Made by a program: the position numbers and the translations under genes. DNA of 44,070 bases from a virus. Each line of letters opens with the position of its first letter. The stretch's first letter is position 1. The DNA is taken from the IMG/VR virus record IMGVR_UViG_3300042569_003330, positions 1 to 44,070 of that record; one strand, given 5' to 3'. Shown in pieces: positions 30,940 through 40,438 of this stretch. A model generated the notes under the pieces. The model saw nothing but the letters and a program-made list of their open reading frames with translations, was not told the origin of the DNA and did no database searches.

Positions 30940-31887
30940 TCAATCCTTTAAGAGTTCGTCCAGATCATCGTCTGCACTATCTCCCATTGGAATTTCGTCT
31001 TCCTCTTTATCAACTTTTTTAGAATTGAGTTTAACAGATTTAGACTTTTTAACAACTGGTGCTTCATCTTCATCTTCATCTTCATCGTCCATTTCGTCAT
31101 CTGGAGAAGCACTTTCTCCGAACCAGTGCTTAGACAAGATTTCTTTAATTTCTTCCACAGGTTTTACCTCTGGAATAAATGTTTTCAAATCGTGTGCTTC
31201 TTGAAGAAGTTCCACGATACGTTCCTGACTAAGTCCAAGTGTTTCTGCATCATCAAACATTGTTTCGGAATAGTTATGATAACCACCTTTTTCCGTAACT
31301 TTAATGATAAGAGATTTACCCTTTTCACTCAAATCCAATGCTTTAGTTCCAATCTTTTTACTCATGTCACCAAAAATGGCACCATGAATACGTTTGAATA
31401 CATCACTAATTGGTGCATTAGTCTTATCAAGTTGTGCTGGATAACGAACAACAACAACTTTACCAACTTTTTCTTTTCCTTCTGGATCATCCCCATCCAC
31501 ACTCACCAAATAAGCATTAACTAATTGCTTACGTTGACCAAGCAACTTATATGATGCTTTTTTTTCTGCGTCGTCACCTGCTTTGTTAGCTTCACTATAA
31601 TGTTTCCATTGAGTAGCTTTATAAGGATCTTCTTTAATTCCTGCATCAGATGGAGAACGACCGCCAAAAATAAAGGAGTTATCTACACGGGAGGTGAATC
31701 CGATTTCCTTGTATGTAACAAACGTATTATCTACGTCCTTAATATTTGGCATGAGACGCACAGTATATGTGCAATTCTTTTTGAGGGACAGGAGTCTTTC
31801 ATCTCCCTTATATCCGCCTTTTTCATTTTCAGTGCGAGTTTCCTCAACAGCTTTGACTTGATTAACAATATCTTCTAGATTTATCAT
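30940..31887 (-). CDS. 32: Single-stranded DNA-binding protein (gp32-like)
   Basis: The 315-residue product is close to T4 gp32 (301). The N-terminal half fits the family: a charged start, RLLSLKKNCTYTVRLMPNIKDVDNTFVTY, then YKATQWKHYSEANK and KLLGQRKQLVNAYLVSVDGD, followed by KVVVVRYPAQLDK. The C-terminus is very acidic (DDEMDDEDEDEDEA and a final DDDLDELLKD), like the T4 gp32 tail that recruits replication proteins. The four zinc ligands of T4 gp32 are absent, with only one Cys in the protein, as also seen in other divergent relatives. It lies downstream of a 262-base non-coding region that may regulate it. Confidence 0.85.
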   Translation of the reverse strand: MINLEDIVNQVKAVEETRTENEKGGYKGDERLLSLKKNCTYTVRLMPNIKDVDNTFVTYKEIGFTSRVDNSFIFGGRSPSDAGIKEDPYKATQWKHYSEANKAGDDAEKKASYKLLGQRKQLVNAYLVSVDGDDPEGKEKVGKVVVVRYPAQLDKTNAPISDVFKRIHGAIFGDMSKKIGTKALDLSEKGKSLIIKVTEKGGYHNYSETMFDDAETLGLSQERIVELLQEAHDLKTFIPEVKPVEEIKEILSKHWFGESASPDDEMDDEDEDEDEAPVVKKSKSVKLNSKKVDKEEDEIPMGDSADDDLDELLKD

Positions 31888-32149
31888 AATTTTCTTAATT
31901 TGTTTCTTAATATTTTCTCAACTTTTTAGGTTATATTTTGTAGTTTTACCTACATTAGTATTTATCAGATTTCGTCGGTTTTCCTGCACCAGCACCATTT
32001 CCAGAATCGAACTGGACGGTTTTTAGATCAAATAAAAAATAGTTTTTAATTTGCTGTGTGAAATCTTATTGACAGAAGCGATTTTGGTTGTTTGTTGTAA
32101 GGATAAAACATCTTTTTATTTGCTGTATCGCTTCTTCCTTTATCTTACA
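31888..32149 (-). other. 262-base region upstream of gp32 with a possible RNA element
   Basis: This is the longest gap in the replication block. On the minus strand 31999-32015 folds into a perfect five-base stem TCCAG/CTGGA around TTCGATT. A frame without a normal start codon (31955-32065, 36 codons plus stop) translates to a Gly-rich end, DSGNGAGAGKPTKSDKY. A 21-codon frame with ATG at 32111 overlaps it in another frame. A short direct repeat with core TTTGCTGT occurs at about 32045-32059 and 32112-32126. T4 gp32 controls its own translation through an upstream pseudoknot, so an operator here is plausible. A broken small gene is the alternative. Confidence 0.35.
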
Positions 32150-32821
32150 CTACTTTGCTCCCCTTTGCAACTGTTTTCTGATGTATCTTGCTATTTTTTC
32201 TTGGACTTTACTCAGAAATTCTTTTGTCTTCTGGCTTCCTTGATATTTGTTATACAAATTTTGTAAATTCATTGAAGACCCAAAATATAATTCAAATTCA
32301 TCTTTTGGCAAATTATACAATAAATTGTAAAATTCTGGAATACTAAAAACAACATACCAAGAGATTTTATGTTGTTTTAAATGAATTAAGCAATCGTTTT
32401 GAGCCACTGAACAAAATTTAGGGTATTCTGAAAAACTTATTTCTTTTTCAATACAAAACTTTGCAATAAATTTATAAGATTCTTTGAAAAATTCAAATTG
32501 TGTTTCTGGTTCACTATCTTTTAGTAGTTGCAAAAACGCTAAACATGTAGAAATTCCTTTTTGACTACTATAAAAACTCAAAGAGTAATAAGGCTTTTCA
32601 TCGTTGTAAATTTTATAAGGTGCATCAAAATATTTCTGACTGGAAAATGCAGGATATTTTTGAAAGATTTTTTCTATTTTAGCTAATTGAAATATTTTCT
32701 TTTCATCTTTTTCAATATCTGAAAAATTCTTTTTTGCACGAAAAGGTTCATTTTTGTTTTGACGATATGATTTTAAATATAAATTATAAATTTGTTTCTG
32801 CTTTTCCGTTAATTGATTCAT
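32150..32821 (-). CDS. Hypothetical protein (223 residues) between gp41 and gp32
   Basis: The product starts MNQLTEKQKQIYNLYLKSYRQNKNEPFRAKKNF and has a central block PYKIYNDEKPYYSLSFYSSQKGISTCLAFLQLL. It ends with a basic helix (QEKIARYIRKQLQRGAK). It is mostly helical and basic at both ends, consistent with DNA or protein binding. Its size and place next to gp32 recall the T4 helicase loader gp59 (217 residues), but I see no sequence match, so that is only a positional guess. Its ATG overlaps the TGA of the upstream gene (ATGA). Confidence 0.55.
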   Translation of the reverse strand: MNQLTEKQKQIYNLYLKSYRQNKNEPFRAKKNFSDIEKDEKKIFQLAKIEKIFQKYPAFSSQKYFDAPYKIYNDEKPYYSLSFYSSQKGISTCLAFLQLLKDSEPETQFEFFKESYKFIAKFCIEKEISFSEYPKFCSVAQNDCLIHLKQHKISWYVVFSIPEFYNLLYNLPKDEFELYFGSSMNLQNLYNKYQGSQKTKEFLSKVQEKIARYIRKQLQRGAK

Positions 32822-33084
32822 TTTTTAATTTTTTTCGATTTGTTAAGAGAAGGATAACGATATGCCATATATTCTACAATAGAATACCACGAAGTTTCTG
32901 ACATTTCAACTAGAGCATTTTGTAACTGTTGATGTTTTTGTATTGTTAGAAACAACGTAACACATGAAATTGGTTTATTAGTAACAATTGTTACTAAACT
33001 CCCAAATTTGTTTATCAAATCTTCTAATTCTTGATTTATTAAGAAAGTATTAGCACACGGAGATACAAAGTCATCATTATACAT
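32818..33084 (-). CDS. Small hypothetical protein (88 residues)
   Basis: The product starts MYNDDFVSPCANTFLINQEL, has a helical middle (QKHQQLQNALVEMSETSWYSIVEYMAYRYPS) and ends in a basic KSKKIKK tail. I do not recognise it. TAAATA overlaps the stop codon of the helicase gene and ends six bases before this ATG. Its stop overlaps the next ATG, so both are translated from one message. In T4 the small late co-activator gp33 is encoded near gp59 and gp32, but no gp33 signature is visible. Confidence 0.5.
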   Translation of the reverse strand: MYNDDFVSPCANTFLINQELEDLINKFGSLVTIVTNKPISCVTLFLTIQKHQQLQNALVEMSETSWYSIVEYMAYRYPSLNKSKKIKK

Positions 33085-33093
33085 TATTTTTAT

Positions 33094-35484
33094 TTAACTG
33101 ATATTGATCAAAGAATCAATATCCAAAATATCTGATAAATTACCTTTTTTATTAAATGATGGTATATTTGGCATGTCATCAGAATCTTCTGATAAACGAA
33201 GAGTATCATAATCAATTGATAAAAATCCTTCGCCCCCTTTTGCACCATCTCGCACTTTTTTACCGCTATAGCGAATCATGTTTGCTTCCCGATCTTCATC
33301 GGTTTGCCAAATATTAACATGCGAATCAAAATCTGCTAATTGGTCCCAACTTCCTGCCATATTATCCAATCCGGGATTGTTTGCTTTATGACTTCCCCGA
33401 TTAAGTTGAGCCACTGTTAAGATAGGTGCTTCAAAAACATAACTCAAACCTCGACATTCTTGAACAATAAACTGTAGTTCGGCATGCTTAGAAGGTTGAT
33501 TAACTGAGGGACGCAATAATGCATGTCCATCAATGCATATCAAATCAGATTCAAATCCTTTTTTATCACGTATCTTTTTTAAGTATGCTCCAATATTTTT
33601 TGCAGAAACTCCTTTTGTCGGAACTTCTTTAATAATCAATTTTGATGATAACTTATTTTTAATTTGATTAATATCTCTTTGGTATTTGTCAATATTTTCT
33701 CCTAATGTTGCAATTGCAATTCCTGTCAACATACCGGAAATTCTTTTAGCATATCGCATTTCAGACATTTCAGGTGAAACAATAACAACATTTAAATTTT
33801 GAAGAATTATATTTACTGCAATATTCGCAAGACAAATGCTATTGTGGGTAACAATAAAATCATTCGTCAAATATAAGTGATCTTCCGCATCTACAGTGAT
33901 GCAGGTGCATTCCTCTCCGTCTGAATAGAGTTCAACTTTAGTTATGCTATTATGAATTTCTTTCTTTTTATTTTTACCAAATAGAATTAGTCGTTCATCT
34001 TTACGAGGAATCAAGTTCATTCTTTTCCGAAAATCATAATCAAATCTGATTCGCAACGTATAATATGTATGATATTCTCCTTTATATTTCTTTTGGGTGC
34101 TTGATACTTTTGCATTGCCTCCTAATGAACGAACAACGAACGCCAGTTGATTAATCATTTGTTCATTTTTAAGAAGAATTTCCATGGAACTATTCTTTCC
34201 TATGAATCCATCTGTATCTATCATACCTTCCAACAATGCAATACGGTTTTCGACGGAAGTATAAATATACTTTTCTGGAATAAATTTTGTATCTGATTTC
34301 TTTTCACTTAATCCTAATCTTTCTAATTCTTCGACTAGTGGATTGTAAGATACTCCTCGTTTTTTTACTATATTAATTCCACGGGTTCCAGACAGTTCTA
34401 AACCCATAGAAGATAATTCTTCTCTTACTCTATACAAACAGATATCGTCAAAATTAGTAAATGATGTTCTACGAGAAATACTCAATCCCCCATCTCCTAG
34501 CAATGCTCCCATAAGATATGGTGGAATAATTAATTTTTTCATGTCATTTGGAAATTCCACTGGTTCACACAATGGAACTTGAAGTCGATTCTTGTATGTG
34601 ACATAATTTTCAATTTTGAATTTAATAGTTTCTGTATCAAGTGTTTGATAACGAGATTTACAAGAATTCCACACTGTCCATAAATGTTCTGGGCAGCACA
34701 GTGTGCTTCTTCCATCCATAAAAGATACTTTATACACCTTTTTGATTCCTTGTGGATGAATATGAGTGATTCTGATAGGCTTTCCAGTTTTCCCATATAC
34801 CAAGTCGCCCACACAAAGTTCCCCAAATTTCTTATACCCAGAAGGAGTATAAATTTCTAGAGAATTCGGTTGAGCTTTCCCCACATTAGTTTCTCCGCCA
34901 ATATCATAAATAGCTTTTCCTTCTTTTTGAAATCCTCCACCAAATGCTTCATCCAACCCTATATATCCTGTTGAAATTAATGAATCTTTTTGTTTTAAAT
35001 ATTCTACAATTCGTTCATTATCAGAAAAATAATCCAAACCCAGATTATCTATAAGAGTAATAGCATGGATTTTTTCTGATTCTTTTTGAATATCATCTAA
35101 TTTGAATTCACGGGAATTTGATTTTTCATCAATGATTTTTTCTGTCAAAATCCCGAATTTTCTCTGCTTTATAAAATATTCAGTATTAAATATCAATTCC
35201 TCTTCATTATAATCACTATCTAGTTTTCTAATATAATCTACAGTTGCTTTTAGACTTTCTTTCAAGTTGGCATCACTAGCCCTTAGTTTTATTTCTGTAA
35301 GACTTGGAATACTATTTCGTTCAATATAAAAGTCGTGAATGATGGAAATGACATTTCCAATATGCTTATCTTTAAATAGACTCTTATCCAAGTAATCTAT
35401 AATAGATGCAAGATATGCTGAATCTTTCTTCAAACAGTGTTGAAGAATTGTTCTTTCAAAACGATCAAGGTCTATTTTTGCCAT
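33094..35484 (-). CDS. 41: Replicative DNA helicase (gp41-like) precursor with intein
   Basis: The 796-residue precursor loses an intein (residues 204-548) to give about 451 residues; T4 gp41 has 475. The N-terminal domain (1-160) is helical. The RecA-like core has STGYIGLDEAFGGG, then Walker A GETNVGK joined to S, and a Walker B region DLICIDGHALLRPS. Later come APILTVAQLNRGSHK and an arginine-rich GKKVRDGAKGG near the end, as in DnaB-family hexameric helicases. It unwinds DNA ahead of gp43 and recruits the gp61 primase. A sigma-70-like promoter has its -10 ending five bases before the ATG. Confidence 0.92.
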   Translation of the reverse strand: MAKIDLDRFERTILQHCLKKDSAYLASIIDYLDKSLFKDKHIGNVISIIHDFYIERNSIPSLTEIKLRASDANLKESLKATVDYIRKLDSDYNEEELIFNTEYFIKQRKFGILTEKIIDEKSNSREFKLDDIQKESEKIHAITLIDNLGLDYFSDNERIVEYLKQKDSLISTGYIGLDEAFGGGFQKEGKAIYDIGGETNVGKAQPNSLEIYTPSGYKKFGELCVGDLVYGKTGKPIRITHIHPQGIKKVYKVSFMDGRSTLCCPEHLWTVWNSCKSRYQTLDTETIKFKIENYVTYKNRLQVPLCEPVEFPNDMKKLIIPPYLMGALLGDGGLSISRRTSFTNFDDICLYRVREELSSMGLELSGTRGINIVKKRGVSYNPLVEELERLGLSEKKSDTKFIPEKYIYTSVENRIALLEGMIDTDGFIGKNSSMEILLKNEQMINQLAFVVRSLGGNAKVSSTQKKYKGEYHTYYTLRIRFDYDFRKRMNLIPRKDERLILFGKNKKKEIHNSITKVELYSDGEECTCITVDAEDHLYLTNDFIVTHNSICLANIAVNIILQNLNVVIVSPEMSEMRYAKRISGMLTGIAIATLGENIDKYQRDINQIKNKLSSKLIIKEVPTKGVSAKNIGAYLKKIRDKKGFESDLICIDGHALLRPSVNQPSKHAELQFIVQECRGLSYVFEAPILTVAQLNRGSHKANNPGLDNMAGSWDQLADFDSHVNIWQTDEDREANMIRYSGKKVRDGAKGGEGFLSIDYDTLRLSEDSDDMPNIPSFNKKGNLSDILDIDSLINIS
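33841..34875 (-). other. Intein of the gp41 helicase: class 3 with LAGLIDADG endonuclease
   Basis: Residues 204-548 (345 residues) split Walker A between Lys203 and Ser549. The first residue is Ala, so the normal nucleophile is missing. The class 3 triplet is present: Trp269 in EHLWT, Cys528 in CITVD and Thr546 in VTHN. Two LAGLIDADG helices are visible, LMGALLGDGG (324-333) and LLEGMIDTDG (417-426), both with their acidic residues. The element therefore looks able both to splice and to home. The insertion point equals that of intein 1 in the terminase. Confidence 0.92.
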
Positions 35485-37923: not shown

Positions 37924-40438
37924 ATATAGGAGTCAAAGATTGCAAAAATCCTTTAAAGAAATGTCGTGTATAATCAATTGTCAAATTGAATTCAGGAGGT
38001 AATTCATTTTGATATGCAATAGCAGGCAGATTAAATTTATTTTCCTTTAAAAACACAATTTTTACTTTAGAACCATTTACAATCTTTGGATACTTATCTG
38101 TTAAATTTAATGTCTTCAATAATTCGTTATGGTAAATGCATAATTTAGCAGTTCCGTGTGTTCCTGTGGCTATATCAAACTTGTTGTTTTTACCTTCCCA
38201 TTTATTCAATACCTTAATTGATGTTCTTTGTGCAATATCATTTGGTGATAATTGTTGAAAATCTGTATTGAAGATTTCATTAATCATATCATTTGCTTGC
38301 TTATTATCCTTGGAAATCATAATTGCTGTTTCGACAATCTTTTTTGCCAGATTTCTGACTGGAATACTCCATGTACTTTTAGCAAGACTCAATCCAGAAT
38401 ATTTGAATTTATTCATTTTCTTTCCTTCCTTATTAACAAGGTGGAGAATATAATGCTTCTTTCCTGTCCAAATTGCTCTTGGACAAACGGATTCTCTTTT
38501 AAAGAAAAAACGCGGATCTTTGGAATTCCATTTATCAATTGCCCATTGGCGAATTGTAGAATTGATATGATCAGAAATTTTATTTTCCACTTCAACAAAT
38601 TCAGGGGTCAAATCACCATTTTCATCAATTAGTTCGAATTTATATTTGTCTTTAATATCTTTAATTGTGATTAGGCACGAATCAGTATCACCTGCAACAA
38701 CAATATCTTTCCATTCCAAATCCCATTCCTTTGATACGAAATCATTAATAGTCTGATCAGTTTTACGAATCATTTCTTGCCCTGTTAATGTAATGCTGCG
38801 AGCACAGTCAGGATCGAATAATGCAAAGAACCGATTACAGAAAACACCATATGTAGAATTCAATAAGATTTTATAAAGATATTGTTCTGTATCTTTTTGA
38901 TCCGCAGTTTTACGAAGCGAAATATATTCGTTCGATTCTGGATTTAATTTTTCCAGTTTCTTTTCCATGATTTCCACTTCTTTACGAATATTCTTTCGTT
39001 TTTCATAAAGTTCATCGCAAAATGATGCAGCTAAACCTTTTTCTTTTTGATGAAAAACTATTCCTGCTGCTGAAATACTGCAATCGTTTCTAACTAAAAA
39101 TTGTTGAAGTTTGTCTTTTGGAATCGACGTTACAACACCTTTTTTAAAGAAAAATAAGACTACTTGATCATTTTCTTCTTTAACAATTTTAGCAACCTTC
39201 ATTTCAGGAGAAATGTTTAATGTAATAATTGTACTAGGATACAAACTGTTTGCATCAAAGCTAACAATATCAGTATGCATTGTATTTTCCGGTTGCTTAA
39301 CATAGCCTCCGGGAATTCTCTCTTTTACTCCTTCGTCTTGTGTAGTAATAATCTTATTTTTCAACAACCCTTGTTTAGCAATAATTCCTGTAATAATTGC
39401 AACTTTACCAAGTGCTTTATCAATATTACAAAATCCACTAAAAGCAGAGAATTTAGCGATTTCCAGATATTTTCGTCGTTCATCAATCAATATAAGCAAT
39501 TTTACGTCCCAAATATTGTAATTGATAAATCTATTCCAATCGGTGTGACACAAATCGTGTAAACTCAATTCACCATAATCTAATTTACCCATTCCTAATT
39601 CTTCTTTTGCAACAAAATCCAATCCATCACTTTCCCGTTCACCGGGAGTGAAAGTTTTATATAAAATCATATAATCCAAATGGGAAACTCCGCCAATGGT
39701 ATATTCTGTATACGTTTGTTTAAACTTGTTCTCTTTTTCTTGACCGTAAATATATTCGACAGGAGACAAGTTCTTTGATTTTCCTTCTCCAAGAACTGAT
39801 TCGATACGACGCACAATGTATGGCATGTCGAAACTATAAGAATTATATCCAACAATAAGATCAGGAAAATTCGCTCTCCAAAATCTCAAAAACTTTTGAA
39901 GTAGTTCTTTTTCAGTAGGAGTAAAATTATAAACAATTTCTTCTGGTTCAATATTTTCCAAATGATCTTTGCATGAATAATGATTATATGGTTTAACTCC
40001 CCATACATAATACTTCTTGGTTTTACTATCAAAAACTGTAATTGATGTTAATGGAAATTTTGCATCTTTTGGATCAGGGAATTCCTCAGAAATAACTTCG
40101 ATATCGTAATAAAAAATTCTCAAAGGTTGTCGAGTCAAATCTATAATATCAGAATCATAATAGTTCTCTAAAAGATATTGCTGAGTTGCAGGAAGATTAA
40201 AATATTTGGTTCCTTTATAAGTTTTAAGATATTCCGTTCTTTCCCATTCACTAGAAAATTCTTTTTTTGCCAAAGGAGTTCCATCAATACCGTGAGAAAT
40301 TACCAAACGATTATCTTTAGTTGGAATATAAAGATATGGTTTGTATTGAACTTTCCGATAAATCGGTTCTCCATCATTTGCATACAGCCAATGATGAATA
40401 ATTGATTTTTTCTTATCGTAAAAAATATTTCTTAGCAT
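37850..40438 (-). CDS. 43: Family B DNA polymerase (gp43-like)
   Basis: The 862-residue replicative polymerase (T4: 898) has the proofreading exonuclease motifs YYDIEV (D112, E114), GYNSYSFD (N199, D204) and YNIWD (Y307, D311). Polymerase motif A is FDANSLYPS (D395), motif B is KILLNSTYG (from K523), and motif C is GDTDS (D584, D586). The C-terminus VEFSLEDLFG looks like the short clamp-binding tail that ties gp43 to gp45. All catalytic residues are present, so it should be active. It follows the glycosyltransferase gene after 12 bases without a promoter of its own that I can see. Confidence 0.97.
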   Translation of the reverse strand: MLRNIFYDKKKSIIHHWLYANDGEPIYRKVQYKPYLYIPTKDNRLVISHGIDGTPLAKKEFSSEWERTEYLKTYKGTKYFNLPATQQYLLENYYDSDIIDLTRQPLRIFYYDIEVISEEFPDPKDAKFPLTSITVFDSKTKKYYVWGVKPYNHYSCKDHLENIEPEEIVYNFTPTEKELLQKFLRFWRANFPDLIVGYNSYSFDMPYIVRRIESVLGEGKSKNLSPVEYIYGQEKENKFKQTYTEYTIGGVSHLDYMILYKTFTPGERESDGLDFVAKEELGMGKLDYGELSLHDLCHTDWNRFINYNIWDVKLLILIDERRKYLEIAKFSAFSGFCNIDKALGKVAIITGIIAKQGLLKNKIITTQDEGVKERIPGGYVKQPENTMHTDIVSFDANSLYPSTIITLNISPEMKVAKIVKEENDQVVLFFFKKGVVTSIPKDKLQQFLVRNDCSISAAGIVFHQKEKGLAASFCDELYEKRKNIRKEVEIMEKKLEKLNPESNEYISLRKTADQKDTEQYLYKILLNSTYGVFCNRFFALFDPDCARSITLTGQEMIRKTDQTINDFVSKEWDLEWKDIVVAGDTDSCLITIKDIKDKYKFELIDENGDLTPEFVEVENKISDHINSTIRQWAIDKWNSKDPRFFFKRESVCPRAIWTGKKHYILHLVNKEGKKMNKFKYSGLSLAKSTWSIPVRNLAKKIVETAIMISKDNKQANDMINEIFNTDFQQLSPNDIAQRTSIKVLNKWEGKNNKFDIATGTHGTAKLCIYHNELLKTLNLTDKYPKIVNGSKVKIVFLKENKFNLPAIAYQNELPPEFNLTIDYTRHFFKGFLQSLTPIYEALRWNLPDPRKQVEFSLEDLFG

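Follow-up and report, generated by a model that had tools for sequence, protein, structure and literature searches.

A putative gp32 control region, lengthened by about 180 bases in one lineage of T4-like viruses

The operator of T4 gene 32 consists of a pseudoknot and a tract bearing UUAAA/UAAA units (PMC535899, PMC3014915). The frame of segG overlaps this operator pseudoknot (PMC535899), and the gene 32 promoters are located inside segG (PMC2988022). A 2010 review (PMC3014915) notes that RB49 is without the pseudoknot and calls for further work on the autocontrol of gp32 across diverse T4-related phages.

A candidate operator stretch is also found directly upstream of the gp32 gene in the DNA analysed here, a 44,070-base IMG/VR virus record that we refer to as the window. 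As in the operators of T4, T2 and RB69 (PMC535899, PMC3014915), the stretch stands before gp32, with a gp32 homologue downstream, and in relatives a folded element is followed by an AU-rich tract that extends to the start codon. Unlike the pseudoknot of these operators, the folded element seen in the relatives is so far recognised as a simple hairpin, whose sequence varies and which is accompanied by few UUAAA/UAAA units and no Shine-Dalgarno (SD) sequence. The window has only a weak counterpart of it, and about 180 nt of extra DNA lie ahead of its leader. The likeness to T4 segG (ORF 32.1; PMC2988022) is that extra DNA occupies the 59-32 interval and that the gp32 promoter motif overlaps the end of a frame carried by it. 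Unlike segG, the extra DNA of the window measures only about 180 nt and is without an endonuclease ORF or domain; indeed, no GIY-YIG or other nuclease ORF was found in the gap by Pfam and PHROG, the longest ATG/GTG/TTG ORF wholly inside it having 26 codons. Our main reading, to which we assign a probability of roughly 0.55, is that the stretch is a gp32 control region, made of a promoter and an AU-rich leader, that has been lengthened in one lineage by about 180 bases.

Gene order around gp32

On the minus strand of the window, a UvsX-like gene is followed by a DnaB-type helicase with an intein, an 88-aa ORF, a 223-aa ORF (32150-32821), a gap of 262 nt (31888-32149), gp32 (30940-31887), a 198-aa ORF and a 244-aa ORF. 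The gp32 single-stranded DNA-binding protein, of 315 aa, is identified by Pfam gp32 (6.5e-09) and PHROG 224 (4.2e-14), and profile comparison aligns it with T4 gp32 over 237 columns (E 2.5e-05). Since the order in T4 (NC_000866), read in the same sense, is 33, 59, segG, 32, the 223-aa ORF occupies the place of gene 59 and is named by this synteny only. Alignment of this ORF with T4 gp59 by hhalign covers 7 columns (E 0.34), a fold comparison of the two gave no significant match, and the ORF could be aligned with its relatives only. Neither the name gp59 for this ORF nor the name gp33 for the 88-aa ORF was confirmed by sequence or fold. Public phages yielded nothing at E 1e-5 in a DNA similarity search with 31000-33500 and no match in tblastn searches with gp32 and with the 223-aa ORF, and no relative was found with the 223-aa profile among 157 pattern matches in genome contigs.

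The helicase gene (33094-35484, minus strand) contains an intein at approximately residues 205-548; judged from the sequence, it is situated in the Walker A region. Its LAGLIDADG-type matches fall slightly short of the Pfam cut-offs. A record more than 97% identical to the window (L009/L032) is without this intein, and its differences from the window cluster beside the insertion site. The helicase of locus L017 aligns over its full length and so seems to carry an intein at that site too.

Length and contents of the gap

Relatives were gathered by a UvsX search and by a profile search with the 223-aa ORF, and the gene order is kept in those with long enough loci. The profile search returned 29 loci, 5 of the window clade and 24 others. 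The gap is 262 nt long in the five window-clade loci and 53-91 nt in 23 of the 24 non-clade loci, the 24th (L051, on the same contig as L017) having a negative gap, with the upstream ORF running into the leader. The window clade thus carries about 170-210 extra nt, and the gap is best read as a composite of a gp32-proximal leader of about 79 nt and an extra segment of about 180 nt. In L017, the ORF upstream of gp32 crosses both the promoter motif and the leader hairpin (L017:11822-11870), as is reported for T4 segG and its pseudoknot (PMC535899). In L019 an extra 147-aa ORF (L019:10400-10843) lies between the homologues of the 88-aa and 223-aa ORFs, and the spacing in L018 and L020 is similar.

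The initial annotation had listed several features of the gap, each of which is indeed there: a perfect TCCAG-TTCGATT-CTGGA hairpin before gp32 (32016-32000, minus strand), a GC-richer core (32029-31970, with 0.43 and 0.50 in two 30-nt bins versus 0.31 for the window), a start-less frame reading DFTQQIKNYFLFDLKTVQFDSGNGAGAGKPTKSDKY up to its stop (32065-31955), a 21-codon ATG ORF in another frame (32111-32046) and a short direct repeat, ACAGCAAAT, at 32126 and 32057. Of 1000 dinucleotide shuffles of the gap, 15 contain a perfect stem of 5 bp that has 3 or more G/C and closes a loop of 7 nt, a number that rises to 84 when loops of 3-9 nt are admitted. Shuffling gave a repeat scoring as high as the direct repeat 7 times in 1000, and a match for the strongest perfect stem in the gap, AGAAGCGAT/ATCGCTTCT, 8 times in 300. 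Folding of the whole gap gives a z of -1.0, with 33 of 200 shuffles as good, and folding of the other strand a z of -0.2. Collectively, the noted features are mostly near chance; the exceptions are the direct repeat and the gap length.

It had also been proposed that the gap holds a small gene, either broken by a frameshift or read by +1 frameshifting; here this would connect MFYPYNKQ... with ...GAGAGKPTKSDKY. The start-less frame, 36 codons on the minus strand (31955-32065 with the stop included), ends in GAGAGKPTKSDKY, and its last codons coincide with the late-promoter-like motif discussed below. It is coding-like, as only 10 of 370 off-frame open runs score as high, although it is one of 11 open runs of at least 20 codons that were scored in the gap, and an ATG frame overlaps it upstream. 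Against the proposal, this 21-codon ATG ORF (32046-32111, minus strand) has a codon score of -0.23 and no family match, and is probably not a gene, the first half of the other frame scores -0.12, and the 36-codon frame has no ATG, GTG or TTG start. Five frame pieces of the gap found no match in Pfam or PHROG, nor did the longer gap peptide in a tblastn search of phages. With one coding-like frame as its little positive evidence, a frameshifted gene is thus a most improbable account of the insertion. The suspicion of a sequencing indel can be dismissed, since five other records hold the same gap, four with identical letters and the fifth with one substitution at 32006, in the hairpin loop; a sequencing error in the window is therefore excluded.

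The gp32-proximal leader and its counterparts in relatives

The initial annotation had suggested that the gap could hold the autoregulatory operator of gp32. Position, promoter spacing and the covarying hairpins of relatives speak for this in the gp32-proximal 79 nt or so (31888-31966), which are partly supported as an operator-like gp32 leader. The suggestion is not supported for the TCCAG hairpin, which lies in a segment absent from the 23 other loci with a measurable gap.

At the distal end of the leader, a late-promoter-like motif, GATAAATA, is located at 31959-31966 on the minus strand, 79 nt before the gp32 ATG, and overlaps the codons of the SDKY-stop end of the start-less frame. The T4 late promoter has the consensus TATAAATA. 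Motifs of the GATAAATA / TATAAGTA type resemble it and stand before window genes and before gp32 of most relatives; the window copy differs from the T4 promoter by one mismatch, and its use as a promoter is predicted. Transcription would presumably start a few bases downstream of GATAAATA, at a position that we take over from T4. Among 31 window ORFs taken as genes, which were hand-picked from ORF lists with other long ORFs left out, the pattern [ATG]ATAA[AG]TA occurs within 70 nt of the start in 7, versus 0.54 expected. In these seven other genes it sits at -11 to -31, far closer to the ATG than before gp32. Of 18 distinct relative leaders, 13 also carry the motif, at 64-80 nt ahead of the gp32 ATG, and 5 lack it; two of the 13 have a further match inside the AU tract.

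At the proximal end, an AU-rich, SD-less stretch, GAGAAAATATTAAGAAACAAATTAAGAAAATT (31888-31919, minus strand), adjoins the gp32 ATG. The A+U content of the last 28 nt before gp32 is 0.89 in the window, a value equalled by three other of its 31 genes, and 0.82-1.0 in the 18 distinct relative leaders. The tract is unpaired in the predicted fold of the window, and none of the 31 ORFs has an SD-like motif in its last 20 nt. Over the final 45 nt ahead of gp32, the window has two UUAA and one UAAA, compared with 0-2 and 0-6 in relatives.

Between promoter motif and AU-rich tract, the relatives carry a hairpin with compensatory changes. Across 19 distinct relative leaders, the end of the best stem lies 24-38 nt ahead of the gp32 ATG, and its shuffle p is at most 0.05 in 15 of the 19. 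This census was confined to stems whose end lies 22-40 nt from the ATG, limits set after inspection of the leaders, and it nearly always yields some best stem; the leaders are moreover related, and the combined p of 3e-13 overstates the case. The census and the folding set collapse leaders identical in the last 75 nt, while the 18-leader count collapses identical gaps; the L051 leader was added by hand to the census and is absent from the 18-leader count of motifs and A+U. The pairs of the hairpin changed on both sides number 3 of 8 in the A5 leaders (10 sequences) and 4 of 8 in the A6 leaders (6 sequences). The covariation score and the percentage paired were reached in 0 of 500 shuffles for both sets, with structures derived from the same alignments as were scored, which favours them. 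Slid versions gave at most 0.128 against 0.350 for A5 and 0.283 against 0.575 for A6. The number of pairs changed on both sides was reached in 33 (A5) and 26 (A6) of 500 shuffles, and the number of pair types in 47 and 249 of 500, respectively. Folding energy is below the shuffle mean in 19 of 19 distinct leaders, that of the window included (mean z -1.5); A5-type leaders (z -0.04 to -1.9) hardly beat shuffles, and the others range from -2.1 to -3.1. The comparison over relatives that had been called for thus finds covariation in the A5 and A6 leaders, and it came upon no diverged copy of the extra segment. A second pairing spotted by eye in A5 leaders (AUCAA with UUGAU) would, together with the hairpin, leave a loop of zero length, and we therefore do not propose a pseudoknot there.

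The hairpin of the relatives stands directly downstream of the promoter motif in those leaders that have one, a location that would also suit a 5'-terminal stabiliser of the mRNA, situated where the late transcript begins and without a part in gp32 autoregulation. T4 gene 32 mRNA is unusually stable (PMC3014915), in keeping with such a role. On the other hand, the AU-rich tract comes after the hairpin, as in the T4 operator, and the motif stands at a far greater distance from the ATG than it does in the seven other window genes that carry it. A purely stabilising hairpin is therefore a tentative alternative, which we consider unlikely though worth keeping in mind; the stabiliser and operator roles could also coexist, and the rival explanations put forward here apply to separate portions of the gap and do not exclude one another.

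The window's own leader hairpin is not recognisable. A weak candidate structure (31927-31954, minus strand) occupies the place of the relatives' hairpin, as either TAGGT/ACCTA (31952-31948 / 31931-31927) or TGTAG/CTACA (31954-31950 / 31943-31939). The former is the best stem of the window at this place, with a shuffle p of 0.206, and folding of the last 75 nt before gp32 gives a z of -0.8. A pseudoknot of UAGGU/ACCUA and AACU/AGUU can be drawn by eye and is without statistical support. The leader model R1 found five matches in the whole window, the best with E 0.5 and none in the gap. Over 31800-32250, R1 and R2 gave weak matches only (E of at least 0.12), and the gp32-side alignments shown are without a hairpin; among the four best matches of R2, the one that uses the hairpin falls within the extra segment (32051-32020; 9.2 bits, E 0.64 for 451 bases). 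R1 also has a weak match at 32152-32109 (10 bits, E 0.34), in which promoter-like letters coincide with the stop of the 223-aa ORF, and the start of the insertion is therefore uncertain. When R1 was run on ten sources, namely T4, one locus of the window clade and eight relatives on which it had not been trained, no gp32 leader was matched; as the model does not transfer to untrained relatives, its silence in the window is weak evidence. With a weak hairpin, and models that place none there, it is position, promoter spacing and the AU-rich tract that argue for an operator in the window.

In the control region that we favour, the gp32-proximal 79 nt or so would be the 5' leader of gp32, in which a T4-type late promoter, GATAAATA, is followed by an AU-rich, SD-less stretch up to the ATG. 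By analogy with T4, the leader structure may serve as the nucleation site for gp32 in excess over single-stranded DNA, from which the protein would spread cooperatively over the AU-rich stretch (31888-31919), the proposed site of ribosome entry, and block the entry of ribosomes.

The extra segment, its possible origin and the layout of the region

The extra segment, with approximate ends at 31967 and 32149 on the minus strand, is present in the window clade only, the 23 other measured gaps being 53-91 nt long, and it houses the noted repeat and frames as well as the TCCAG/CTGGA hairpin. When viral contigs were scanned with patterns from this segment, only the five clade records were retrieved. 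Comparison with 15 related records gave the clade copies and short matches, the best of 19 bases (E 0.008 for one genome). A blastn search with the 190 nt on the gp59 side at E up to 10 matched 149 records, none covering 80% of the query, with a best E of 0.6 among the matches listed.

One explanation is that the extra segment forms a functional structured RNA, acting in gp32 control or as a small RNA, with two stems that share ACAGCAAAU(U)AAAAA. Element A (32074-32135, minus strand) is a AGAAGCGAT ... ATCGCTTCT stem that encloses ACAGCAAATAAAAA, and element B (31967-32066, minus strand) is an AGATTTC ... GAAATCT stem that encloses ACACAGCAAATTAAAAA and the TCCAG hairpin. The shuffle results for the direct repeat (7/1000) and the strongest stem (8/300) favour this explanation, as does the fact that both elements match one and the same Rfam model below threshold (E 0.017 for B and 0.35 for A in an 801-base search). 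However, the fold z is only -1.0 for element A (34 of 200 shuffles as good), no better than shuffles, and -1.5 for element B (14 of 200); the Rfam matches stay under gathering (26.1 and 20.9 versus 41.5 bits), for a family from Dictyostelium, and neither the viral contigs nor the 15 related records supplied a diverged copy for covariation. We consider a structured RNA improbable. The matches to that model, RF01414 (Dictyostelium class I RNA), adjoin each other at 32073-32134 (E 0.35) and 31966-32065 (E 0.017) on the minus strand; they are driven by a shared ACAGCAA motif and the stems, and are probably due to chance in AT-rich DNA. An Rfam scan of the window at gathering thresholds returned nothing.

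The TCCAG-TTCGATT-CTGGA hairpin (32000-32016, minus strand) is similar to a tRNA T-arm, and it might be the 3' end of a tRNA gene (T-arm and acceptor strand) left behind by recombination. Its 18-base core lies inside a tRNA gene in all 5 matching non-clade viral contigs, two of which are near-identical there, and 5 of 49 phage records matched by blastn have the core under a tRNA-Thr gene. Against this, no 5' half is seen, ARAGORN and the tRNA model RF00005 find nothing, the 15 related records (three of them of the window clade) contain no tRNA, and a stricter pattern has 0 matches in genome contigs. Moreover, other blastn records place the same bases in protein genes, T-arm-like hairpins number 3 in the window versus 0.3 expected, and the search pattern is itself T-arm-shaped, which favours tRNA matches. 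A tRNA remnant is thus quite unlikely, and the likeness to a T-arm has perhaps arisen by chance. A 13-base match to a part of the hairpin, GTTCGATTCTGGA, occurs at 38930-38942 on the plus strand, antisense to an 862-aa ORF, and a second match of 12 bases lies 70 bases before it; the two are 60 bases apart in the gap, in the same order.

According to our main reading, the roughly 180 nt on the gp59 side would be a lineage-specific insertion in the control region. Its likeliest origin may be a mobile or foreign gene cassette of which a decayed 3' part remains, situated in the interval that segG occupies in T4. Such an origin is plausible since T4 carries segG in the corresponding place, and a cassette decayed up to the promoter would explain the start-less frame; Pfam and PHROG show no signature of a mobile gene in the insertion. 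The location of the gp32 promoter, in or next to the end of the insertion, may be the reason why the insertion has been retained. The analysis itself establishes the layout of the region, its greater length in one lineage and the compensatory changes in the hairpin of relatives, whereas promoter use, repression by gp32 and the source of the insertion are inferred. A more elaborate scenario would have gp32 autoregulate, across this SD-less T4-like lineage, through a simple 5'-terminal hairpin with free sequence turnover, a nucleation element that the window clade would have replaced or enlarged with a tandem two-stem RNA domain of about 180 nt bearing the T-arm-like hairpin; we regard this as very unlikely.

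A limited literature search by title found no publication on gp32 leaders in this phage group, and the leaders of the relatives are concrete RNAs for testing. If the main reading is true, the combination of a covarying hairpin with an AU-rich leader in a distant, SD-less T4-like group would suggest that the layout of the operator persists where the pseudoknot and the Shine-Dalgarno sequence have both gone. The extra segment would then add to the cases in which DNA has entered the 59-32 interval with its end at the gp32 promoter.
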